Both the position numbers and the translations under genes were made by a program. DNA of 64,000 bases, from NCBI GenBank assembly GCA_903900705.1, contig CAIUOG010000054.1:1-64000 (forward strand), given 5' to 3'. Of this stretch, positions 24,755-63,993 are shown piece by piece; position 1 is the first letter of the stretch, and each line of letters starts with the position of its first letter. This stretch comes from an uncultured Acidobacteriia bacterium (GTDB taxonomy: Bacteria > Acidobacteriota > Terriglobia > Bryobacterales > Bryobacteraceae). Below the pieces are notes generated by a model. It saw only the letters and a list, made by a program, of their open reading frames with translations, did no database searches and was not told where the DNA came from.

Positions 24755-26440
24755 ATGAGTTCCTCCGCCACCCAGCAGACACCCCAGCACACGGCTCAGT
24801 CCGGCCTCAGCCAGTCCAGGCTCGAATCGCTTCTCGAATCCGCGAAGCTGCTCAGTTCCCACCTGAATCTCGACCAGTTGCTGGGCCACCTGCTGCGCAC
24901 AGCGATGGGGCGCTATCTGATTACGCGCGGGGTAGTGGCCATCCGGACTGAAGCTGGTTGCCGGGTGGAGGTTTCGCGCGGGTGCGCGGCCCTGAAGAAG
25001 GGCTCAGATTTTACCCCGGAAGCCTCCCTGGCCGCCGGCCTGGAACTGGTCTTCGATATTGGCGCGGCGGAAGCCCCCATCGGCACGCTTGCGCTCGGCA
25101 AACCGGCACGCGGCCCGCTGGACGCCGAAGAGACGGACTTCATCCGGGCGCTGCTTGGCCTCGCCGCCAGCGTCATCGCCAACGCGCTCTCCCACGGCGA
25201 AAGCGTGTCGCTTAACCAGGAACTCGATCAGAAAGTACAGGAACTGCGCGCGCTGCTCGACCTGGTGCGCGGGCTTGCCGCAACGCTCGATCCGGAGGAA
25301 GTGGCCCGCCTGCTGCTGCTCACTTTTTCAGGTCGCTGGGCTGTCACCAAATCCGGCATCGCTGCGTGGAAGGAAGGCCATCCGCCGGTCCTGCGCCAGC
25401 GCGGGCTGAAGCTTGATGCCCTGGAGCACCAGCGCGAAGCGATCGGAGCCCTGCCGGACGCCTCCGTGCTGATGGCGGAACAGGCCGCGCGGTTCGGACT
25501 GCCCGCAGGTTCCATGATCATGCCCGTGCGCTCCGGCGGCGAAACCTGCGGCGCGGTGGTGTGCGGTCCCCGCATGCTGGGCGCGGCATACACGAATGAC
25601 GACCTCGAATTCGGCGCGGGCCTTGTTGCCCAGGCCGCGGTCGCGCTCGACAACTCGTGGCACTTCCGGGACACCATCGGCAAGAAGCAGATGGAAAAGG
25701 AACTCGCGCTCGCCGCGAGCATCCAGACCGAACTGTTCCCCAAGCAACTGGCGAAGCTCTTCGCCACCGACGTCGCCGCGCGGAATCGCCAGGCAAAGCA
25801 GGTGGGCGGCGATTATTACGACGTCATCCACATGCCGTCTTCGCATCCCACCGAAGAACATCTGGTCTGCGTGGTCGATATCTCCGGAAAAGGCATTTTC
25901 GCTTCCCTGCTGATGAGCAATATCCAGGCGACCCTGCGCGCCCTGGTGTTCCGCGAGAACTCGCTCCCCATCGTGGCGCAGACCGCCAACGACCTGCTTT
26001 ACGCCACCACGCCGTCCAACCGTTACGCCACCGCGCTGCTGCTGATTTACGAAGCCTCCACCGGCGCGTGCCGCTGGGTGAACTGCGGCCATACGGACGG
26101 CATTATTCTCCGGGCCAATGGCGACGTGGAGATGCTGGCCTGCAGCGGCATTGCTCTGGGTCTCTTCCCTGCCCGCACCTACGAGGAACAGACCTTCGAA
26201 CTCCGCGCCGGCGACCTGCTGGCGATCTATTCCGACGGAGTCACGGACGCGCAGAATGAAGCGGAAGAGGACTTCGGGACAGACCGCCTGGTGGACGTCC
26301 TCAAACAGCACGGTTCCCTGCCCGCGGCCGATGTGGTGGAACGCGTCTTCGAGGCGATCGACGATTTTGCCGGCAGTGCCCCGCAGTTCGATGACATTAC
26401 CATGATGGTTATGAAACGCGGGGCCGGAAACATGGCATAA
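24755..26440 (+). CDS. SpoIIE/PP2C-type phosphatase with GAF-like sensor region
   Basis: Soluble protein of 561 residues. The first about 300 residues form two GAF-like units (LLESAKLLSSHLNLDQLLGHLLRT and RALLDLVRGLAATLDPEEVARLL are typical GAF entry helices). The C-terminal PP2C-like domain is complete: QTELFPKQL, VGGDYYDV, VVDISGKG, CGHTDG, IYSDGVTDAQNE and FDDITMMV. Proteins of this kind (RsbU, RsbP) dephosphorylate STAS-domain antagonists to release a sigma factor. It is the first of three phosphatases that lead to a STAS gene and an HATPase gene in the same direction, so it probably feeds signals into that switch. Confidence 0.88.
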   Translation: MSSSATQQTPQHTAQSGLSQSRLESLLESAKLLSSHLNLDQLLGHLLRTAMGRYLITRGVVAIRTEAGCRVEVSRGCAALKKGSDFTPEASLAAGLELVFDIGAAEAPIGTLALGKPARGPLDAEETDFIRALLGLAASVIANALSHGESVSLNQELDQKVQELRALLDLVRGLAATLDPEEVARLLLLTFSGRWAVTKSGIAAWKEGHPPVLRQRGLKLDALEHQREAIGALPDASVLMAEQAARFGLPAGSMIMPVRSGGETCGAVVCGPRMLGAAYTNDDLEFGAGLVAQAAVALDNSWHFRDTIGKKQMEKELALAASIQTELFPKQLAKLFATDVAARNRQAKQVGGDYYDVIHMPSSHPTEEHLVCVVDISGKGIFASLLMSNIQATLRALVFRENSLPIVAQTANDLLYATTPSNRYATALLLIYEASTGACRWVNCGHTDGIILRANGDVEMLACSGIALGLFPARTYEEQTFELRAGDLLAIYSDGVTDAQNEAEEDFGTDRLVDVLKQHGSLPAADVVERVFEAIDDFAGSAPQFDDITMMVMKRGAGNMA

Positions 26441-26456
26441 TGAGCCGATCCGGACC

Positions 26457-28883
26457 ATGCTGGAAGTCATCCTGAAAGCGCTGTTTCCGAATGAGCCGCC
26501 GTCGAGTGTCCGGCGGCGCATCAGCACGTTCGCCATCCTGTTTTTCCCGGCGGCGCTCGCAGCGGGCCTGATTCTGCTGTATCACAACACGCCGCCAACG
26601 CCTGTGCCCGTCACAACGACTCGCGACAGCAGCGTGCGGGCGGCGCGCCGTTTCCTCCTTTCCCGAGGCGTCGACACCGAAGGCTGGGACGTGACCACGA
26701 ACTTCAGCACGGATGACAGCAAGCTGAAATTCCTCAACGCCAAACCGGAACGGATCAAGGCCTGGAACTACGCGCCGCCGGTCTACGGCACCGTCAGGCT
26801 GCGGGACCCGAAGAAAGGTCGATCCGCCGGGGTCTATGTTTCGCTGGATAACAAGATTCTGGGTTTCAACATCGAGAAGGCTGGTCTCCCCGGAACCAGT
26901 GCGACTCTGACAGACGCAGCCGCGCTGCAACTGGCGAAGTCAGGACTGCCGCAGGGAATCCCGTTCGCCGAACCGGGTGTGGAAAGAAACACAGTGGGGG
27001 GCCAGGAAGAGCGTACATACTCCTTCCATTCCGCCGCGATTCCACAGGCCGGCATCGCCACCGAAGTCACGCTGCTGGGCGACAGGGTAGTCCGCATCAG
27101 CTCAACGCTCTCGCCCGACGAGGAGCAGGACGGGACGCCCGGTGAGCACCTCCAGGCGGCGCTGAACGTCCTCGGGATCTGCTTTCTCTGCATTGTTTCC
27201 GTCTTCAGTTTCTATCGTTACGCCAACCGTATGATCCAGCAGGAGGTGTCCCACAGCCGCAGCATTATCGTGGCTCTGCTGTGCAGCGTTTTCTGCGTCC
27301 TGATCGGCTTCAACGCGGTGGTGAACAGTGATTCGGTGGAGATTCCCGTAGCTATGGTGGTGGCCATCTTCGCTGTCCTCGGTGTTTTCGGCGGAGGCCT
27401 GCTTGCCGCCGCCTATGGCAGCGGTGAAGGCGATGTTCGCGAGGCCTACCCGGGCAAGCTCACCTCACTGGACACACTGCTTACCGGACATATCTTCTCG
27501 CGAAACGTCGGGCTTGCAATCCTGATTGGCCTCGTTTGCGCAAGCTGGCTGCTGCTGGCGATGGGCATTCTGACCACTCCATTCCGCACCACCTTCCCGC
27601 AGGGCTCGGCCAGCATGGCGGGCTCATTGGTCCGGCTCGGCTGGCTCATGCCGATGGTGGTGTACAGCCTGCTGGCGCTCTCCTTTTCCGCCGCTGGTCT
27701 GCTGCAGCCCCTTGCGTTCGCGCATCGGTACCTGGCCCACAGACCGCGTCTGCGGCTTCCCTTCCTGCTGGTCTGCGCCGCACTGGTCTCCATGCTGCGA
27801 ACGCACTCCGGGTCCGCCACGGAGTTTCTCCTCGAAACCGCCGTATTTGTGGGCGCGCTGCTGATTCCGTTCTTTGCGCTCGATCTGTTCGCGGCGCTGG
27901 TCTGCATCGGCTCGTTGTCGGCCTTCCTCGGCGTTGTCGAGAGCGTGGTGGCGGCGCCCGGCTACTCGGAAATCTCGGTCGTTATCCACGCACTGACTAC
28001 CCTCGGCCTGTTCGCCTTCGCTATCGTGAGCATCCAAAAGGGCCGGGAGTATTCCGATGAGCAGGTCCGCCCCCTGTACGCGCGGCATATTGCGGAGCGC
28101 AAGTCGCTCGAAGCGGAGGTTTCGGCCGCCCGTGAGGCGCAGTTACGGCTGCTGCCGGAAGCCGTGCCGGACTATGCCGGGCTGCACATCTCCGCAGCCT
28201 GCATTCCAGCCGAAACCGTAGGCGGCGACTTCTACGATTTCTTCCTGCTGGGCGACGGGCGGCTCGGCATCTTTATCGCCGAGGGCAATAACCGGGGTCT
28301 GGCGGCCGCTCTGACCATCGCGCTGGCGAAGGGCTACCTCATGCACTGCGTGGAACGATACAGGGAACCGGTGGAGATCCTTTCTCACCTCGAAACCGCC
28401 CTCGCGTCAATCTTTGCGGCCGGTGGCGCTTCAGCCACAGGCATCACCGACTTCGCCTTCGCTTCCGTCGACCCGGTGGCGGGTGAAATCCGCTACGCGC
28501 GGACCGGTGTCTACCCCAAAGTGGTGGTTGTCTCGGAAATCGCCGCCGCGGCCACCGAACGAATGGCGCCGGTGCGAGGCAGGAGTTCTCCTCTGGTCGA
28601 AGGTCGGGCGCGGCTGGAACCCGGCGACCATGTGGTGCTCTTCACCGATGGCATTGGCCGGCGGCTGGCCCTCGGGAACAGGAAGCCGGAGCAGTTCATA
28701 ACGTCAGCCGCCGCGCGCTTCAAGGGCAAAGATCCGGCGGGCAACCCGGCTGAGGCCTTTCGGGATCACTGCATGGAGGCCACCAAAGCGTCCCTGGAAC
28801 CAGATGATCTGACGATGGTGGTGATCCGGGTCGCTTCGCGCGCACAGGCCGAAGGCTCCACCGCTCTGGGGGTGGTCGCATGA
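26457..28883 (+). CDS. Membrane SpoIIE-like phosphatase with degenerate catalytic motifs
   Basis: Protein of 808 residues: an N-terminal membrane helix, an extracytoplasmic region to about residue 230, several membrane helices (about 235-530), then a SpoIIE-like domain. The first metal motif VGGDFYD (about 588-594) and the final D-D-L-T (783-786) are kept. Other consensus positions are changed: D-V-S-G-K-G is EGNNRG (609-614), A-G-H-N-P is TGVYP (683-687), and the S-D-G-x-T-E-A loop reads TDGIGRR (730-736). The protein may be weakly active or a non-catalytic sensor. It resembles the next gene in layout, suggesting tandem duplication, and overlaps it by 4 bases. Confidence 0.85.
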   Translation: MLEVILKALFPNEPPSSVRRRISTFAILFFPAALAAGLILLYHNTPPTPVPVTTTRDSSVRAARRFLLSRGVDTEGWDVTTNFSTDDSKLKFLNAKPERIKAWNYAPPVYGTVRLRDPKKGRSAGVYVSLDNKILGFNIEKAGLPGTSATLTDAAALQLAKSGLPQGIPFAEPGVERNTVGGQEERTYSFHSAAIPQAGIATEVTLLGDRVVRISSTLSPDEEQDGTPGEHLQAALNVLGICFLCIVSVFSFYRYANRMIQQEVSHSRSIIVALLCSVFCVLIGFNAVVNSDSVEIPVAMVVAIFAVLGVFGGGLLAAAYGSGEGDVREAYPGKLTSLDTLLTGHIFSRNVGLAILIGLVCASWLLLAMGILTTPFRTTFPQGSASMAGSLVRLGWLMPMVVYSLLALSFSAAGLLQPLAFAHRYLAHRPRLRLPFLLVCAALVSMLRTHSGSATEFLLETAVFVGALLIPFFALDLFAALVCIGSLSAFLGVVESVVAAPGYSEISVVIHALTTLGLFAFAIVSIQKGREYSDEQVRPLYARHIAERKSLEAEVSAAREAQLRLLPEAVPDYAGLHISAACIPAETVGGDFYDFFLLGDGRLGIFIAEGNNRGLAAALTIALAKGYLMHCVERYREPVEILSHLETALASIFAAGGASATGITDFAFASVDPVAGEIRYARTGVYPKVVVVSEIAAAATERMAPVRGRSSPLVEGRARLEPGDHVVLFTDGIGRRLALGNRKPEQFITSAAARFKGKDPAGNPAEAFRDHCMEATKASLEPDDLTMVVIRVASRAQAEGSTALGVVA

Positions 28884-31282
28884 ACCGGCGCTGGTTCACC
28901 GCCGGGCTGGCCTTCCTCGCCGGCACACTCTGGCTGCTGTGGGCCTTTCCTCGCTTTCACCCCTCCACCCGCCTCGGCCTTCGCTATGACCGCCAACAGT
29001 ATCTCGCCAGGGCGCGCGGCTTCGCTGCCGCCAATGGCATTTCCACGAAGGACTGGAAGGGCTACGCGGTCGCTGAAACGCTGATCCGGAATCAGGAACT
29101 CCAGATCAGCATGCCCGGCAGCAGAATGGCGAAAGCGTTCCCCGATGCGCAGATCAAGACCAACTTCCTGCCAGCCTCCGGCTCCGGCGCGACCGTCACG
29201 CTGCGCCCCGATGGCCGCCCCCTCGGGTGGAAGCTCCCGGTACCGGATGCCGCTTCAAAAGCCACGCCCAAAGACGAAGGCCGCAAGGCGGATGTCCACA
29301 AGCTGATGGAGAACATGACCGGTGACAGCGTCAGTGATTTCACCCTGATGGCGGACGGAGTCGCCGGAGACGACGGCATGGGCTATAAATGGCGGGAGGG
29401 CGGCGCCGCCATCGGGAATCCCCGCGTGGATCTCGAAATCATCTCGAAGAACGGCATCATCTGGGAAGCGAAATCGGACTATCAGATACCGGAGTCCATC
29501 TCGCGTCAGTTCAAAGCAAATACGCCTCTGAAGATCACGGCTGTCGTGATCTGGTCGATCGCGCTTTTCCTCGGAATCCTGATTCCGGTGGCGCGTGAGG
29601 GCGGCGGTCCCACCGCGAGAGCCCTGAAAGACCGCGTGCCCATGTGGCTCAGCGGTTGTGCCGCTCTGACGGTACTGCTGTCAACGCTCATCGAATGGGA
29701 TGACGAGATGGTGAGGGCAACCGGAGCTTCCGGGCTGGCGAATGAGATCATCTCGATGATCCTCGTGCCGGTATTCATCGGCCTGATGTTCAACATTGTA
29801 ATCGCCGGCACCGTGCTCAGCGCCCGCATGCATCCACTGAAGGTTCGCGGCTTTCGTTTACTCGGTACCCGGGCTTTCTTCAGCACCACCACGGCAACGG
29901 AATTACTGGGAGGCGGTCTGTTCGGACCCCTCCTGGCCGGTCTCCCGCTGCTGCTCAGCGCCGTGTTGCACCTTCCCCTTTTTCAGGGTTACGACGATGG
30001 CCTGCTGCTCAACGAAGCCGCCGTTCCGGCTGCTCTGCTGAGCATGATTTCCCAGCAACTCCTCGGTGTGATCGCCTTTCTGGGGCTGATGATGCCCCTC
30101 GCCATCCGGTTCAGTTCGGGCCGTAAGACGCAGAAAGCAAAAGCCTGGCTGCAGCCAGCGCTGATGATGCTCTTCGCCGTCCTGACGTTCGCCATGCTGC
30201 AGTCGCCGTTTCGCGGAGCCGAGGGCGCGAATGTTCTGGCGGCTGCCCTCAGCGGACTAACCACCATCTATCTCTACTTCCGGTTCGGCATGCTGGGCGC
30301 GCTTGCCGCGCAGGCCTCGGCCAAACTCTTCACCTCGGCGGGCGCACTGCTGGTACAGCCGGCGGCGGGGCTGCAGTCGTCCGGTTGGGGCATTGTGGCG
30401 GCCGGGTTCGGGCTGGGAATCGTTCTGCTCGTGGCCTCGATCAAGGCGCCCGAAGCCGTCGCGGAACTGTACGGAGAATCCGGGGCGAAGATGCAGACGC
30501 GTTCCCGGCGCGAGGAACTACTGGCGGAATTCAACGTGGCCCGCTCGGCGCAGCAGCAGATGCTGCCGGCAAAGCCGCCGGTGCTGGCGGGCTACACAAT
30601 TGCCGCCTCCTGTGACCCCGCCAAAGAGGTTGGCGGGGACCTCTATGATTTTTTGCGCCTTTCCGATGGCCGCTGGGGCATCGGCGTAGCCGACGTCTCC
30701 GGCAAAGGCGTCCCGGCGGCGCTCTACATGACCCTGACGAAGGGGTTGCTTTGCGCGGCGGCGCAGGATTCCGGTGATCCCCGGCAAATCCTCGGCTCCG
30801 TCAACAAGCACCTGCGGACCGTTACGAAAAAGAAGATGTTCGTCACCATGGCGATGGGCGTTCTGGAGCCCGAAGCCCGCACGCTGGAGTACGTCCGCGC
30901 CGGCCACAACCCCGTGGTGTGGCGCAGACACGCGCTGGGCGAGACCAGATGGCTCGGCGGACCCGGTATCGGTCTCGGCATCGCGGGACCTGCGCTGTTC
31001 GCGAAAACGCTGGCGGCGGAGACCATCGAACTGGAACCGGGCGATGCCCTCGTCTTTTATTCCGACGGCCTGACCGAAGCCATGAACGAAGAACTGGAGC
31101 AGTTCGGTGAGGACCGTCTCGCCGCGGCGGTGGAACGCGCCGACGGCTTACACGCGGAAGCCACGCGCGATAGCATACTGAAGGAAGTGAGTGCGTTTCT
31201 GAAGGGCGGGCATTCGCAGGACGATCTCACGATCGCCGTTCTGCGGGTGAATCCGGAAATCGGTTCAGACGGGAGAATATAA
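28880..31282 (+). CDS. Membrane SpoIIE/PP2C-type phosphatase with intact catalytic domain
   Basis: Protein of 800 residues with one N-terminal membrane helix, an extracytoplasmic region (about 30-200), a bundle of membrane helices (about 215-520), and a cytoplasmic SpoIIE domain. All motifs are canonical: QQQMLPAKPP, VGGDLYDF, VADVSGKGVPAAL, RAGHNPVVW, FYSDGLTEAMNE and QDDLTIAV. It should dephosphorylate a STAS-type protein; the STAS gene starts 3 bases after its stop. The layout parallels the preceding gene, but the motifs lost there are intact here. The sensed signal is unknown. Confidence 0.9.
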   Translation: MNRRWFTAGLAFLAGTLWLLWAFPRFHPSTRLGLRYDRQQYLARARGFAAANGISTKDWKGYAVAETLIRNQELQISMPGSRMAKAFPDAQIKTNFLPASGSGATVTLRPDGRPLGWKLPVPDAASKATPKDEGRKADVHKLMENMTGDSVSDFTLMADGVAGDDGMGYKWREGGAAIGNPRVDLEIISKNGIIWEAKSDYQIPESISRQFKANTPLKITAVVIWSIALFLGILIPVAREGGGPTARALKDRVPMWLSGCAALTVLLSTLIEWDDEMVRATGASGLANEIISMILVPVFIGLMFNIVIAGTVLSARMHPLKVRGFRLLGTRAFFSTTTATELLGGGLFGPLLAGLPLLLSAVLHLPLFQGYDDGLLLNEAAVPAALLSMISQQLLGVIAFLGLMMPLAIRFSSGRKTQKAKAWLQPALMMLFAVLTFAMLQSPFRGAEGANVLAAALSGLTTIYLYFRFGMLGALAAQASAKLFTSAGALLVQPAAGLQSSGWGIVAAGFGLGIVLLVASIKAPEAVAELYGESGAKMQTRSRREELLAEFNVARSAQQQMLPAKPPVLAGYTIAASCDPAKEVGGDLYDFLRLSDGRWGIGVADVSGKGVPAALYMTLTKGLLCAAAQDSGDPRQILGSVNKHLRTVTKKKMFVTMAMGVLEPEARTLEYVRAGHNPVVWRRHALGETRWLGGPGIGLGIAGPALFAKTLAAETIELEPGDALVFYSDGLTEAMNEELEQFGEDRLAAAVERADGLHAEATRDSILKEVSAFLKGGHSQDDLTIAVLRVNPEIGSDGRI

Positions 31283-31285
31283 CGG

Positions 31286-31651
31286 GTGGCAACAAATTTC
31301 ACGGTACAGCGGAGCACCACCGGCAACATCGTCGTGCTGGCTCTGAACGGCTTTCTCGACGCCCACACCGCGCCGGAGTTTGAGAAGGTGGTGCAGCAGG
31401 AGTTCGATGGGGGCAACGTGCGCCTCATTGCCGATTGCGGCGAGCTGACGTATATTTCGTCCGCCGGCCTGGGCGTTTTCATGAGCTTTATTGAGGATAT
31501 CCGGGAAGCCGGCGGCGATCTGAAGATCTGCAATCTGGCGCCGAAGGTCGCACAGGTGTTTGAAATCCTCGGCTTCGATTCCATCTTTGAGATGGTGCCC
31601 GCGGTGGCAGACGCCGTGAAGGGTTTTGAAAATCCCGCCAAAGAGGTCTGA
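31286..31651 (+). CDS. Anti-sigma factor antagonist (STAS domain)
   Basis: Protein of 121 residues forming a single STAS domain of the SpoIIAA/RsbV type. The expected phosphorylation site lies in YISSAGLGVF, where a serine next to the conserved S-A-G-L turn is phosphorylated by the partner kinase. The start is GTG at 31286, three bases after the phosphatase stop, with GGGAGA upstream. Dephosphorylated STAS protein binds the anti-sigma kinase and frees its target. It is flanked by phosphatases upstream and by the HATPase gene 5 bases downstream, so partner choice is well supported by position. Confidence 0.92.
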   Translation: MATNFTVQRSTTGNIVVLALNGFLDAHTAPEFEKVVQQEFDGGNVRLIADCGELTYISSAGLGVFMSFIEDIREAGGDLKICNLAPKVAQVFEILGFDSIFEMVPAVADAVKGFENPAKEV

Positions 31652-31656
31652 ACCAC

Positions 31657-32091
31657 ATGCCATCGATCGAGCGCACATTTTCACTGCAGGTGCCCTCCAA
31701 CACGGAGAATCTCGCGATGATTCGCGACTTCGTGAATGGCATCGGCACCCGTGCGGGCCTCCCCGCGGCTGACGTGGCAAAGATTGAACTGGCCGTGGAT
31801 GAGGCGTGCGCCAACGTCATCGAACACGCTTACGGACCGGAAGTCACCAAAGAGGTGACCGTCAAAGCAACCATCGACGAGGAAACCGTGCAGATTGAGG
31901 TTGTCGACACCGGCAAGGGCTTCGACCCCGGGCTGATTTCGCAGAAGAATCTGGAACAACTGGTGGCCGAACGGAAGAACGGCGGGCTGGGCATGCGCCT
32001 CATGAAGACGTTGATGGACGAGGTTCACTATGAAGTGATCCCCGGCCAGAAGAACGAACTGCGGATGGTGAAACGGCTAAAAAAATGGTGA
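31657..32091 (+). CDS. Anti-sigma regulatory factor, HATPase serine kinase (RsbW-like)
   Basis: Protein of 144 residues with a single GHKL ATPase domain. The N box is ELAVDEACANVIEHAY and the G1 box is DTGKGFDP; NGGLGMRLM supplies the G2-type lid. RsbW/SpoIIAB-type proteins phosphorylate the STAS antagonist and hold a sigma factor or another target inactive. No sigma factor gene is adjacent, so the output target is elsewhere. The C-terminal end lies in a 20-base tandem duplication that changes the stop position and adds a final tryptophan. Confidence 0.9.
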   Translation: MPSIERTFSLQVPSNTENLAMIRDFVNGIGTRAGLPAADVAKIELAVDEACANVIEHAYGPEVTKEVTVKATIDEETVQIEVVDTGKGFDPGLISQKNLEQLVAERKNGGLGMRLMKTLMDEVHYEVIPGQKNELRMVKRLKKW

Positions 32092-32104
32092 AACGGCTGA
32101 AAAA
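32065..32104 (+). repeat. 20-base direct tandem duplication at the end of the HATPase gene
   Basis: The 20 bases starting ATGGTGAAACGGCT at 32065 are repeated at 32085 with one difference (CTA versus CTG). Because 20 is not a multiple of three, the second copy is read in another frame. The gene now ends K-K-W with a TGA inside copy two, while the older end (M-V-K-R-L-K-K then TAA) is still visible in copy two. Confidence 0.8.
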
Positions 32105-32108
32105 ATAA

Positions 32109-32134
32109 GGCCGGCCGGAGGGTTCCGGCCGGCC
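32109..32134. terminator. Bidirectional GC hairpin between convergent genes
   Basis: A perfect 10-base-pair stem, GGCCGGCCGG with CCGGCCGGCC, encloses the 6-base loop AGGGTT. It lies between the stop of the anti-sigma gene and the stop of aspS, which face each other. No T run follows on either strand, so it may act as a weak or factor-assisted terminator for both. Confidence 0.6.
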
Positions 32135-56833: not shown

Positions 56834-58012
56834 TTAGCCTTCAGACTTGAGGGAGAGCAGCGTCCTGGCAACCGAATTAGCGACAACCTCCGCCAGGCGC
56901 ACCGGTACCGCGTTGCCCAGTTGGCGCATCGCCTCCGTCCATGCGCCTCGAAAGATGTAATCATCCGGGAACGTTTGCAGGCGCGCGGCTTCACGGACCG
57001 TGAAATACCGCAGGGAGCCATCGGGCCGCGCGAGCATATTCTCCCCACCCGGTACGCCATGATCTCCGGCCTTGAGGGTCTTGGCGGGCTCATCCAGGGG
57101 ACTACCGGTATGGCCGGGATAGCTGCGCGCGCCCGGGTTAAACCGATGATTCGGAATCGTATTACCGGGGAACTTTTCGGGATCGGGCAAGTCGCTGATG
57201 GCGTCTCTGACCGTGAGCCAGGGAACCACCTGGTCCCCGAAGAGATCGCCGCGTCTCACTTTTTCGACACGGGCGCCGAGACGCTCTTCGAGATTGGGGC
57301 GGTCTTTTTTCGCGACCCGGTGCCTTTCCCAGTAGTCGCCCGTGATCCATTTCGCCTTTATCAGGGCATCCTCCGAATGCGTTTCCTGTGGAAAGCTCCA
57401 TTCGACGCCAAGATCCGCGCGGAAACCAACGATCAGCACTCGCTCCCGCTTTTGAGGTACCCCGTAGTCTGCCGCGTTCAGCAATTCAGAAACAACGTGG
57501 TACTCTGATCGGCCCCGGCTGGACGTTTCCTGCTTTTCGAGCCGCCTGCAATGATCGCGCCACGCTTCGTCTTTCTTCCGCAGAATGCCCGGGTAGCTGA
57601 GTTGCAGTCGAATGTACTCAAAGTAAGTCGCGAATGTCTCGCGCTTTAGCCCTTTGACATTTTCAAAAATAAACGCCTTCGGGCGAAGTTCGCGGACCGC
57701 GCGCACGGCCTCGGGGAACATATCGCGCTCATCCATGTAGCCCTTATGTTTGCCACCCATGGAAAACGGTTGACACGGGGGTCCCCCGGAGACGACCATG
57801 ATGTCACCGCGAAGCGTGTCGTAGAGGAACTCGCGCACATCCATCTCATGCAGGGGCCACTGATCCACGTGGCGCGCATGATGTCGCTGATTCTCTCTGA
57901 AGGTTTCGCATGCGTCGGAATTCCATTCAATCACCGCCGCGTGATTAAATCCGGCCTTGGCCATTCCGATAGCCATGCCTCCCGCGCCGGCGAACAGTTC
58001 AACACTCCGCAT
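56834..58012 (-). CDS. DNA (cytosine-5)-methyltransferase
   Basis: Protein of 392 residues with the m5C methyltransferase motifs in order: I FAGAGGMAIG (residues 7-16), IV GGPPCQPFS with catalytic Cys80, VI FENVKG (116-121), VIII PQKRERVLIVGFR, and X GNAVPVRLAEVVANSV near the C-terminus. The variable region between VIII and IX is the target-recognition part. It should protect host DNA from the adjacent nuclease. It overlaps vsr by 14 bases and ends one base before the nuclease gene, a tight three-gene operon. The paired Vsr repairs T:G mismatches from deaminated m5C. Confidence 0.92.
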   Translation of the reverse strand: MRSVELFAGAGGMAIGMAKAGFNHAAVIEWNSDACETFRENQRHHARHVDQWPLHEMDVREFLYDTLRGDIMVVSGGPPCQPFSMGGKHKGYMDERDMFPEAVRAVRELRPKAFIFENVKGLKRETFATYFEYIRLQLSYPGILRKKDEAWRDHCRRLEKQETSSRGRSEYHVVSELLNAADYGVPQKRERVLIVGFRADLGVEWSFPQETHSEDALIKAKWITGDYWERHRVAKKDRPNLEERLGARVEKVRRGDLFGDQVVPWLTVRDAISDLPDPEKFPGNTIPNHRFNPGARSYPGHTGSPLDEPAKTLKAGDHGVPGGENMLARPDGSLRYFTVREAARLQTFPDDYIFRGAWTEAMRQLGNAVPVRLAEVVANSVARTLLSLKSEG

Positions 58013-58412
58013 CGAGAAATCTCCTCACCACTCTTTTCAGTCCCTCAGCGTTCCGCAGTTCGCATTCCCAGATGGTCAGCACCTTCCAACCCTCCCGAGC
58101 AAGCGCCTTCCTGTTTCTATCGTCCCTTTCGCGATTTCCCTCCAGCTTGGGGCCCCAGAATTCCGGTCTGGACTTTGGCATGCGCGCGAGCCCACAGTCT
58201 CGGTGCCGATGCCAGAAACAGCCATGAACGAAGATAACCTTCCGCCGCGGGCGGAACACGAGATCGGGACAACCGGGCAAGTCGCGCGCATGCAGGCGGT
58301 AACGATAACCGAGCGAGAACACCAGCTTTCTGACGGTGAGTTCGGGACGGGAATCCTTCGCGCGGACGCGCGCCATAACTTGTGATCGTTCGGACTTCGA
58401 GATAGAGTCCAA
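57999..58412 (-). CDS. vsr: Very short patch repair endonuclease
   Basis: Protein of 137 residues matching Vsr: VMARVRAKDSRPELTVRKL at the N-terminus, then YRLHARDLPGCPDLVF with the catalytic aspartate, VIFVHGCFWHRHRDCG with the zinc and active-site His/Cys residues, and GWKVLTIWECEL. Vsr nicks next to T:G mismatches that arise by deamination of 5-methylcytosine. The start is TTG at 58412, preceded by GGGGAG. It is the first gene of the island and overlaps the methyltransferase gene, so repair and methylation are made together. Confidence 0.9.
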   Translation of the reverse strand: MDSISKSERSQVMARVRAKDSRPELTVRKLVFSLGYRYRLHARDLPGCPDLVFRPRRKVIFVHGCFWHRHRDCGLARMPKSRPEFWGPKLEGNRERDDRNRKALAREGWKVLTIWECELRNAEGLKRVVRRFLDAEC

Positions 58413-60648: not shown

Positions 60649-61437
60649 CTATGCCGCCGGGCCCGCCAACGGACCGCAGAGATCCCGCAGGAAGCCTTCG
60701 AGTTTGCTGGAATCGGAGTGAATCTGCCGTACAATCGCGCTGCCCACCACCACCGCTTCCACCTTGCCCGCGAGCGACGCCACATGCGCCGGTGTGGAGA
60801 TGCCGAAGCCCATGGCGAGGGGCAGTTTCGTAATGGCGCGCATGCGGTCCACCAGCGGCATGGCGGAGGACGAAATATTGTCCTGCTCGCCGGTGATGCC
60901 GGTGCGCGAAACCAGATAAATGAAGCCGCTCGAATACTCCGCCACCAGTTTCAGGCGTGCGTCCGTACTGGTGGGCGCGGCGAGGAACACCGTATCGAGG
61001 CCCGCGTCTCGCATCACCTTCACGTACTCGCCGGCCTCTTCCACGCTCACGTCCGTCAGCAGGCAGCCGTCAATGCCGGCAGCCTTCGCGTCCTTCGCCA
61101 GACGTTCAAACCCGTAGCGAAGCGCGGGGTTCAGGTAGGTAAAGAGCAGCAGCGGTATCTGCGAGGTCTGCCGGATCTCCGCGGCAATCGCCAGCACCCG
61201 CGCGAGGTTGGTGCCGGCTTTGATGGCGCGGTCGCCCGCCTGCTGAATCACGGGGCCATCGGCAATCGGGTCGGAGAACGGCACGCCGAGTTCAATCAGA
61301 TCCGCTCCGGCCCGTTCCATAGAGGCCACGAAGCCCGCCGTCGATTCCGGATTCGGGTCGCCCGCCGTCAGGTACGCAATCATGCCGGTGCGGTTTTCCG
61401 CCCGGAGCCTTTCAAATAACTGAGCGATGCGGGTCAC
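60649..61437 (-). CDS. trpA: Tryptophan synthase alpha chain
   Basis: Protein of 262 residues that cleaves indole-3-glycerol phosphate to indole, which is channelled to TrpB. The catalytic glutamate is in [19 protein letters not shown] and the catalytic aspartate in [15 protein letters not shown]. Phosphate binding is by [11 protein letters not shown] and VVVGSAIV. The start overlaps the trpB stop by 4 bases, as expected for subunits of one complex. Confidence 0.95.
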
Positions 61438-62633
61438 GCCTGGTCCATTTCCTTCAGATTTTCTCTGTAGATGTCGATATCTTTGTCGCCGCGGCCAGAG
61501 AGGTTCACGATGAAAATCTCGCCGGGGTGCTCGGGCGCAATGCGAATCGCCTCCGCCACCGCGTGCGCCGATTCGAGCGCCGGAATAATGCCTTCCGTGC
61601 GACTCAGCGTCACCGCGGCCGCAATCGCCTGGTCGTCCCCGCAGGAGCGATACTCGGCTCGGCCCAGGTCATGCAGCCAGGCATGTTCCGGCCCCACCGA
61701 GGCATAATCCAAGCCGGCCGACACAGAGTGCGTCAGCGCGATCTGCCCATCCTCATCCTGCAGCAGATAGCTGCGTGTCCCCTGCAGCACGCCGGGCGAA
61801 CCGCCGGAGAAGCGCGCCGCGTGCAACCCGAGTTCCGCGCCGCTGCCGCCGGCCTCCACGCCGATCAGTCGCACGCCGTCATCCTCAATAAACGGATGGA
61901 AGAGACCGATCGCGTTGCTGCCGCCGCCCACGCAGGCAATGGCGACATCCGGCAGACGGCCTTCCGCCTCCAGAATCTGCTCGCGCGCTTCCTGGCCGAT
62001 CACGCGATGGAAATCGCGCACCATCGCCGGATAGGGATGCGCGCCCAGGGCCGAACCGAGCAGGTAATGCGTGTGCGAAACGTTCGTCACCCAGTCCCGC
62101 ATGGCTTCGCTGATGGCGTCTTTGAGAGTCCGGCTGCCGGAGGTGACGGGGACAACGGTCGCGCCCAGCAGGCGCATGCGGAAGACGTTGAGGCGCTGCC
62201 GCCGCATGTCTTCCTCGCCCATGTAAACGGTGCAATCGAGCCCGAACAGCGCGCAGACCGTGGCCGTGGCAACGCCATGCTGACCGGCGCCGGTTTCGGC
62301 GATAATCCGCTTCTTCCCCATGCGCCGGGCGAGGAGGGCCTGGCCGAGGCAGTTATTGATCTTGTGCGCGCCGGTGTGCAGCAGATCTTCGCGCTTGATG
62401 TAGATCTTTGCGCCGCCCAGTTGCGCCGATAGCCGTTTGGCAAAGTAAAGCGGCGTGGGGCGGCCCGCGTAGGTCTTCAGCAGGTGATCCAGTTCGGCGT
62501 GAAAGGCCGGGTCCAGCCGGGCCTCCGCGTAGACATTCTGCAGTTCTTCGAGCGGCGACATCAGAACTTCGGGAACGTAACGTCCGCCGTAGGGTCCGAA
62601 ATGCCCCCCTGCATCGGGTTGAGTAGAGATCAT
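61434..62633 (-). CDS. trpB: Tryptophan synthase beta chain
   Basis: PLP enzyme of 399 residues that joins indole and serine to tryptophan. The start [14 protein letters not shown] is typical, the PLP lysine is in [26 protein letters not shown] forms the catalytic loop, and [14 protein letters not shown] binds the PLP phosphate. It is a TrpB1-type sequence, consistent with the adjacent trpA. It overlaps trpF upstream (ATGA) and trpA downstream. Confidence 0.96.
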
Positions 62634-63208
62634 TGGTTGAGAGCTGCCTTAATAAACGATTTCATTCGGGCGTGGTCTTTCCGGCCCGGCGAGGCTTCCA
62701 CGCCTGACGCGATATCCACGCCCCAGGGCTGCGCGCTTTCGATTGCCGCCCGCACGTTTTCCGGCGTCAGACCGCCCGCCAGAACCACCGGTTTCGAAAC
62801 CGCGGCCGCCAGCGGCCAGTCGAACGCGCGGCCCGAACCGGGTCCATCGAGCAACAGCGCCTCGGCCGGATAATCGGGGATCGCCGTCATCTCCGGCAGC
62901 ACGCGAAACGCCTTCCAGACCCGGATGCCCTGGCCGGGATGCGCTTCCGGAGTCTCGCTGCCGTGCAACTGAGCGACATCGAGCCCCAGTTCCGCCGTCA
63001 GGTGTTCGATCCGCGCCGGGGCTTCGTCCACGTACACGCCCACCTTCCAGATGTTCGCGGGAACCTCGCCGATCCACTCCGCCAGAGCCTCCGGACGGAC
63101 GGACCGGGGACTTCGGTCATAAAAGATAAACCCCAGCGCCCGCGCGCCGAACTCCACCGCGGCGAGCGCATCCTCGCGATTCGTAATGCCGCAGATCTTC
63201 ACGAACAT
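62630..63208 (-). CDS. trpF: Phosphoribosylanthranilate isomerase
   Basis: TIM-barrel protein of 192 residues. The start [13 protein letters not shown] carries the catalytic cysteine. The family segments [11 protein letters not shown] and [11 protein letters not shown], and the end [18 protein letters not shown] with the catalytic aspartate in this strand, are intact. It isomerises phosphoribosylanthranilate for the TrpC reaction. It shares one base with trpC upstream and overlaps trpB downstream. Confidence 0.95.
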
Positions 63209-63993
63209 CAGGCCACCAGTTCCCGCAGGGCCCGCGTCGCGTCCCCTGATTTCACCAGATGCTCGCCCACCAGGAACGCGTCAAATCCCGCTGCCATCAG
63301 TTGACGGACGTCGGCGGCATGGAAAATCCCGCTCTCGCTGACCTTCGTGACCCCGGCGGGAATGCGCGGGGCAAGTTCCACGGAGGTATCGAGCGAGACA
63401 TGGAAAGTGCGCAGATCCCGGTTGTTGATGCCGATGATTTCCGCGCCGGACTTCACGGCAAGGTCCACCTCGGCAGCGTCATGCGCTTCCACCAGTGCCG
63501 CCAAGCCGAAACTCGCCGCCAGTTCGCGGTAATCGCGCAGTTGCGCCTCGTCCAGAATCGCGACAATAAGCAAAATCGCGTCCGCGCCGTGGGCCGCCGC
63601 TTCCACCACGTGATACTCGGAAACCGTGAAATCCTTGCGGATCACCGGCAGGGAGCAGGCGGCGCGGGCGGCATGAAGGTCGGCCAGACTGCCCTGAAAG
63701 AAGTCCCGGTCCGTGAGCACGGAAAGCGCCACCGCGCCACCCTGTTCGTAGCGGACGGCGAGTTCGGCCGGCCGGAAGTCTTCCACCAGGACGCCTTTGC
63801 TGGGCGAGGCCTTCTTGATTTCCGAGATCACAGCGGGCCGTTTGGAGCGCAGGGCGGCGGCGAAATCGCGGCGATTGGCGCGCGCGGCTTCGGCCATTTC
63901 GCGCAAAACGGGGAGCGGAACAGAGGCCTCCCGCAGCTCCTCGCGTTTGCGGGAGACAATACGGGCCAGGATGTCCGGTGTCGCGGGGGTCAA
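63208..63993 (-). CDS. trpC: Indole-3-glycerol phosphate synthase
   Basis: TIM-barrel protein of 261 residues that closes the indole ring. The start ILARIVSRKREEL is typical; VISEIKKASPSKG carries the catalytic lysine, LPVIRKDFTVSEYHVVEA and IIGINNRDLRTF follow, and VSESGIF and FLVGEHLVKSGD bind phosphate. The start is TTG at 63991-63993, because a TGA lies in frame two codons upstream. It is the first gene of this operon inside the window; further trp genes may lie beyond the edge. Confidence 0.93.
   Translation of the reverse strand: MTPATPDILARIVSRKREELREASVPLPVLREMAEAARANRRDFAAALRSKRPAVISEIKKASPSKGVLVEDFRPAELAVRYEQGGAVALSVLTDRDFFQGSLADLHAARAACSLPVIRKDFTVSEYHVVEAAAHGADAILLIVAILDEAQLRDYRELAASFGLAALVEAHDAAEVDLAVKSGAEIIGINNRDLRTFHVSLDTSVELAPRIPAGVTKVSESGIFHAADVRQLMAAGFDAFLVGEHLVKSGDATRALRELVA

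Follow-up and report, generated by a model that had tools for sequence, protein, structure and literature searches.

What does a phosphatase with altered catalytic motifs do in an operon that encodes two other phosphatases of the same type? To address this question, we analyzed five co-directional genes, P1-P2-P3-P4-P5, at positions 24755-32091 on the plus strand of a 64,000-nucleotide stretch of DNA (the window) from an uncultured Acidobacteriia bacterium. Gene order, loss of metal ligands, duplication, purifying selection, gene pairing and the split in conservation between protein surfaces were all obtained by computation. A gap of 16 nt separates P1 from P2, P2 and P3 overlap by 4 nt (ATGA), and gaps of 3 nt and 5 nt precede P4 and P5, respectively.

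24755..26440, plus strand: P1, soluble GAF and SpoIIE-type (PP2C/PPM) phosphatase, 561 aa, four metal Asp present
26457..28883, plus strand: P2, 808-aa membrane protein and candidate pseudophosphatase, with a predicted periplasmic domain, an Rce1/CPBP-related membrane domain, a helical linker and a degenerate SpoIIE domain
28880..28883, plus strand: overlap of the P2 stop and the P3 start, 4-nt ATGA
28880..31282, plus strand: P3, 800-aa membrane SpoIIE phosphatase with intact catalytic residues and a membrane domain lacking the CPBP EExxxR motif
31286..31651, plus strand: P4, STAS anti-anti-sigma-type protein with a YISSAGL phosphosite
31657..32091, plus strand: P5, RsbW/SpoIIAB-like HATPase_c_2 kinase with an E...N N-box

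Pfam and NCBIfam models recognized GAF and SpoIIE domains in P1, SpoIIE domains behind long N-terminal parts in P2 and P3, a STAS/anti-sigma antagonist domain in P4 and an RsbW/SpoIIAB-type HATPase in P5. The SpoIIE scores were 157 bits for P1, 60 for P2 and 159 for P3 (cut-off 25), and the host genome contains 15 SpoIIE matches. The layout of three SpoIIE proteins, one STAS protein and one HATPase that an earlier note had read from the DNA was borne out by these domains, with exact ORF coordinates. Encoded together are a PPM phosphatase, a STAS protein with a phosphorylatable Ser and an RsbW-like kinase, the components of a partner switch, as in the RsbU/RsbV/RsbW and SpoIIE/SpoIIAA/SpoIIAB systems of Bacillus. 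Because the YISSAGL of P4 and the E...N box of P5 were each kept in 30/30 copies, both proteins look competent. The locus also shares the linker, the switch helices and the conserved STAS Ser phosphosite with the Bacillus RsbU/SpoIIE switches. It differs from them in having three phosphatases, one of them degenerate, in its CPBP-related membrane inputs and in that no adjacent sigma factor gene was found.

We began with the metal site of P2. In B. subtilis SpoIIE, D628, D746 and D795 are the manganese ligands at M1, while D610, D628 and the carbonyl of G629 form the M2 position (PMC3517971). Aligned to SpoIIE, the window P2 has D591, E609, D731 and D783 at the four side-chain positions, and G610 is the counterpart of G629. 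Scored in this way, three of the four Asp are kept and the fourth is Glu.

28227..28229, plus strand: P2 D591 (SpoIIE D610 position), ligand kept, Asp in 41/41 copies
28281..28283, plus strand: P2 E609 (SpoIIE D628 position), replaces the bridging Asp; E, S, Q, G or D in relatives
28647..28649, plus strand: P2 D731 (SpoIIE D746 position), kept in the window; N, E, K, R, C, G or S in half of the copies
28803..28805, plus strand: P2 D783 (SpoIIE D795 position), kept in the window; S, E, A, Q or R in 16/39 copies

The motifs reported for the middle protein in the earlier note (GGDFYD, EGNNRG, TGVYP, TDGIGRR and DDLT) were all read correctly, and stand in context as GGD591FYD, AE609GNNRG, TGVYP, TD731GIGRR and PD783D784LT. 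Calling them eroded was right in that the substitutions are real and too strong for the window copy, in which they are mild. Taken alone, the window P2 would make only a weak case for lost catalysis. A sequencing or assembly error was considered for the window P2 and rejected, because an orthologue from the same genus (L156, 57% identical) carries AEGNNRG and TDGLGRR at the matching places.

The relatives make the case. Among complete copies from the family loci, all four ligands were present in 32/32 P1 and 38/38 P3 proteins and in only 2/39 P2 proteins; the other 37 had lost at least one metal Asp. The bridging Asp at the D628 position was E, S, Q or G in most P2 copies, whereas the Asp of GGD and the second Asp of DDLT were unchanged, and a P2-specific motif around AEGGNxGLASALT was common to the copies. 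Five P2 copies from outside the class, in three further families of the phylum (f83, f22 and f99), were also degenerate, that of L245 almost completely. By the four metal Asp, P1 and P3 belong with the active SpoIIE/RsbU phosphatases and P2 does not. The proposal that the middle paralog is non-catalytic is thus probably right, on the strength of ligand loss across its relatives rather than of the window copy, whose own inactivity would follow from theirs. Alternatively, P2 might have remained a phosphatase that uses metal differently, with Glu in place of Asp, and has a lower or different activity. Since the window copy keeps three of the four ligands with Glu as the fourth and two distant copies keep all four, weak activity is conceivable, and the D-E-D-D pattern of the window recurs in 16/39 copies. 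However, many orthologues at the same place in the gene order carry N, K, E, S, C or G at D746 and one of S, E, A, Q and R at D795, the L245 copy has lost nearly all motifs, and constraint on the docking loops and the active-site columns is weaker in P2 than in P3 (see below), making residual catalysis unlikely. One of the two P2 copies with all four metal Asp lies at L183 (G317:C2, 5330-10115), where P2 is open and P3 is broken by an in-frame TAG that leaves only its C-terminal part open.

To place P2 relative to P3, we compared the two proteins directly. Their profiles aligned over 739 columns, nearly the full length, at 100% probability, indicating that the shared layout is real. In a careful maximum-likelihood tree with a closer outgroup, the P2 copies formed one clade (100/99) and the P3 copies another (89/93), and the two were sisters; this tree replaced an earlier quick one in which P3 was unresolved around P2. 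Outside the two clades fell single-copy membrane SpoIIE proteins with canonical motifs from the same phylum (L246, L247 and L249). We conclude that the two arose by one duplication before the cassette spread, in agreement with the earlier suggestion that the membrane proteins are duplicates. The stem leading to P2 was 1.17 changes per column and that leading to P3 was 0.36.

P2 has longer branches than P3, which could point to a pseudogene in decay or to misassembly. At G393:C82 (6261-10228), both genes contain stops, a TGA and two TAG in P2 and a TAG in P3; this pair seems to be decaying, unless the assembly is poor. However, dN/dS of the P2 phosphatase domain was 0.04-0.25 in unsaturated pairs, and in the more distant pair of the window and L156 it was 0.22 for P2 compared to 0.12 for P3. 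This purifying selection argues that P2 is not a decaying gene. With its open frame, its matching same-genus orthologue and its retention across several families, decay or misassembly is refuted for the window P2 and scarcely credible for P2 in general.

If P2 is maintained and has lost catalysis, the surfaces that are kept should indicate what it does. SpoIIE and RsbU are activated by dimerization through a helical linker and an alpha1/alpha2 switch (PMC5468089, PMC12143880), and their STAS substrates dock on three loops, the switch-loop, the flap and the alpha3/4 loop (PMC11418112). We compared column entropy over the same 37 loci for P2 and P3. In the helical linker (P2 residues 540-572; 28074..28172, plus strand), alpha1 and alpha2, the entropy of P2 minus that of P3 was -0.19, 0.20 and 0.04 bits, no difference. 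By contrast, P2 had higher entropy than P3 in the D628 loop (0.77 bits), the switch-loop (1.52), the flap (0.81), the SDG region (0.77) and the alpha3/4 loop (1.49). The DDLT segment was relaxed as well, all relaxed segments lying at 0.5-1.5 bits, and the flap was partly deleted. Interface columns differed from active-site and docking columns with a Mann-Whitney p = 7e-8, a value that is indicative, as columns share a phylogeny. In the N-terminal part the direction was reversed: dN was lower in P2 than in P3 in 8/8 independent pairs, and P2 had more near-invariant positions.

This split is the pattern that would be expected of a regulatory dimer partner, and not of a substrate trap or a residual enzyme. 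A substrate trap or decoy would bind P4 or P4~P without turnover and so inhibit the switch. PPM pseudophosphatases may retain substrate binding after losing catalysis (PHLPP2, PMC12002173), and the fold of P2 appears to be kept in the predicted structure. However, a protein that traps the same P4 would be expected to retain its docking loops, and few parts of P2 are more relaxed than these, which exceed P3 by 0.8-1.5 bits; we therefore regard a trap as quite improbable. The earlier note had left open whether the paralog became a sensor or an inhibitor. Our data favor the sensor, because the membrane part of P2 is more constrained than that of P3, the dimer and switch surfaces are kept and the docking loops are relaxed; of the inhibitor, the substrate-trapping form is disfavored. 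We read the pattern as a division of labor that would place sensing in P2 and catalysis in P3, while the conserved linker and helices could instead serve P2 homodimers or folding.

We next asked how P2 and P3 are distributed. When the N-terminal part of P2 was used as the query against 237 family genomes, 43 gave strong matches (E below 1e-20). Strong P2 and P3 matches fell in the same family genomes, and the sole P2 without P3 (G291) was at a contig edge. We read forty loci of 8-15 kb from relatives, and the order P1-P2-P3-P4-P5 was identical in most of them. P2 and P3 also occur in genomes of families f83, f22 and f99, most of which have P4, P5 and P1 nearby in another order; in these genomes P1, P4 and P5 shift position and P2 and P3 remain adjacent. 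In seven loci (L173, L174, L180, L181, L184, L188 and L195), a P2-P3 pair occurred with no match to P1, P4 or P5 in the stretch read; two of them, L174 and L180, belong to genomes assembled into 2-3 contigs. In 35/37 pairs, the sequence allows an overlap of exactly 4 nt (NTGA) between the stop of P2 and the start of P3. Within the limits of draft contigs, P2 and P3 were never clearly apart, unpaired copies lying at contig edges. The conserved unit is P2-P3. A mirror-tree analysis of the phosphatase parts did not reveal clear P2-P3 co-divergence beyond shared history (partial r 0.18), and a search of genome contigs for related loci returned domain-level SpoIIE relatives and no orthologues. At L173, L174 and L180, all from one genus, the pair sits between genes that by eye are cytochrome-domain-like and DUF1501-type-like, a setting constant in the three genomes.

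The constant adjacency and the 4-nt overlap, even in loci without the rest of the module, make P3 the likely partner of P2. They also bear on whether P2 could be a homodimeric receptor whose pseudophosphatase domain acts on a partner other than P3, as an adaptor in the manner of E. coli RssB. In RssB, an inactive domain of the same family does serve as an adaptor (PMC12143880), which sets a precedent, and like P2 RssB retains linker and switch control. Against such an adaptor stands the pairing with P3, and we judge it decidedly improbable. The two proteins also differ: RssB, which serves ClpXP as an adaptor, carries a receiver domain and a PPM domain truncated at its C terminus, whereas P2 is a membrane protein with a whole fold that is encoded beside an active paralogue. 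When RssB-type features were looked for in P2, no receiver domain matched, the C-terminal DDLT strand was present and the PPM domain was not truncated.

To learn more about the membrane part, we searched with the P2 N-terminal profile. It matched proteins from the same phylum that are Rce1-like (CPBP) by Pfam and have YcdB/YcdC-repeat domains, among them L215 over positions 3-530 (E 2e-39).

26514..28061, plus strand: P2 periplasmic and membrane module, relative of YcdB/YcdC-repeat and Rce1-like proteins, without EExxxR or FxxxH

The Pfam Rce1-like model did not match P2 or P3 themselves, and the relation to CPBP/Rce1 accordingly rests on the profile match. By this match, P2 and P3 are related in their periplasmic and membrane parts, over ~530 positions, to type II CAAX proteins of this kind, from which they differ in being fused to a phosphatase domain and in their motifs: EExxxR was found in 0/38 P2 and 0/37 P3 copies, and FxxxH was missing at the aligned place in P2 copies. 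The membrane domains of P2 and P3 are thus relatives of CPBP/Rce1-like proteases without the protease motif. AlphaFold2 models built from orthologue alignments had mean pLDDT values of 85.6 (P2) and 86.8 (P3) and the same layout of a first helix, an alpha/beta domain that is probably periplasmic, a helical membrane part, a linker helix and a PP2C domain. The PP2C fold was kept in both models, and Foldseek matched the C-terminal domains of both to structures of RssB, SpoIIE and SiaA. The fold, together with its Pfam score, places P2 within the SpoIIE-type PP2C/PPM family. Across the class, proteins of ~1100-1200 aa (L216-L225, for example L217 and L220) seemingly contain two successive YcdB/YcdC-repeat and Rce1-like modules, and EExxxR and FxxxH are present in the first module copy.

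Our model for the locus is a partner switch in which P2 is a pseudophosphatase receptor subunit that controls P3 through a heteromeric dimer, to which we assign a probability of about 0.6. The kinase P5 would phosphorylate P4, and P4 would be dephosphorylated by P1, in response to a soluble GAF input, and by P3, in response to a membrane input. P2, an old paralogue of P3, would have lost catalysis and retained the helical linker and the alpha1/alpha2 switch helices. Probably produced by coupled translation, P2 and P3 would most likely form one heteromeric receptor, to which P2 would contribute the better-conserved periplasmic and membrane sensing part. Across the dimer interface, P2 would then set the active or inactive position of the P3 switch helices. 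The elements that we infer are the physical association of P2 with P3, the signal, the sign of the control and the downstream target of P5. A fuller version has slightly less than an even chance of being right: in this two-subunit receptor phosphatase, P2 would combine the sensor with a dead phosphatase domain, P3 would combine catalysis with a drifting sensor, and the signal would pass across a pseudo/active PPM heterodimer from membrane domains of intramembrane-protease descent.

Partner-switch phosphatases are thought to be controlled by dimerization. If the model is correct, a conserved pair with one dead protomer is a natural test of whether one half of a dimer switches the other, and P2-P3 would inform how several inputs join in partner switches. 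P2 would be a widespread PPM pseudophosphatase of bacteria whose fold is complete, and a case in which a dead protease-type domain and a dead phosphatase domain were reused together as a receptor. In the literature searched, which lay mostly outside subscription journals, we did not find a published description of such a dead/active PPM pair. The iRhoms and PHLPP2 follow the common principle of a dead enzyme kept for regulation, although these are animal proteins and not homologous as systems. Finally, P1 has the tandem GAF and PPM phosphatase layout of RsbZ, a likeness of layout only.

We also looked for a target of P5. Among recurrent neighbors of the cassette, sought as a candidate target, none occurred in >8 loci and none was recognized as a sigma factor; in the host genome, the SigBFG model gave matches below its cut-off only. 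The stop codon of P5 lies within a tandem duplication of ~20 nt (32066-32110). The last residues of P5 are MVKRLKKW, and the second repeat unit, just behind, encodes MVKRLKK followed by a stop. Farther along the window, adjoining minus-strand frames at 56834-58412 resemble by eye a DNA cytosine methyltransferase and a Vsr-like mismatch endonuclease. Minus-strand frames at 60649-63993, also assigned by eye, resemble part of a tryptophan operon beside chorismate mutase/DAHP synthase-like frames.
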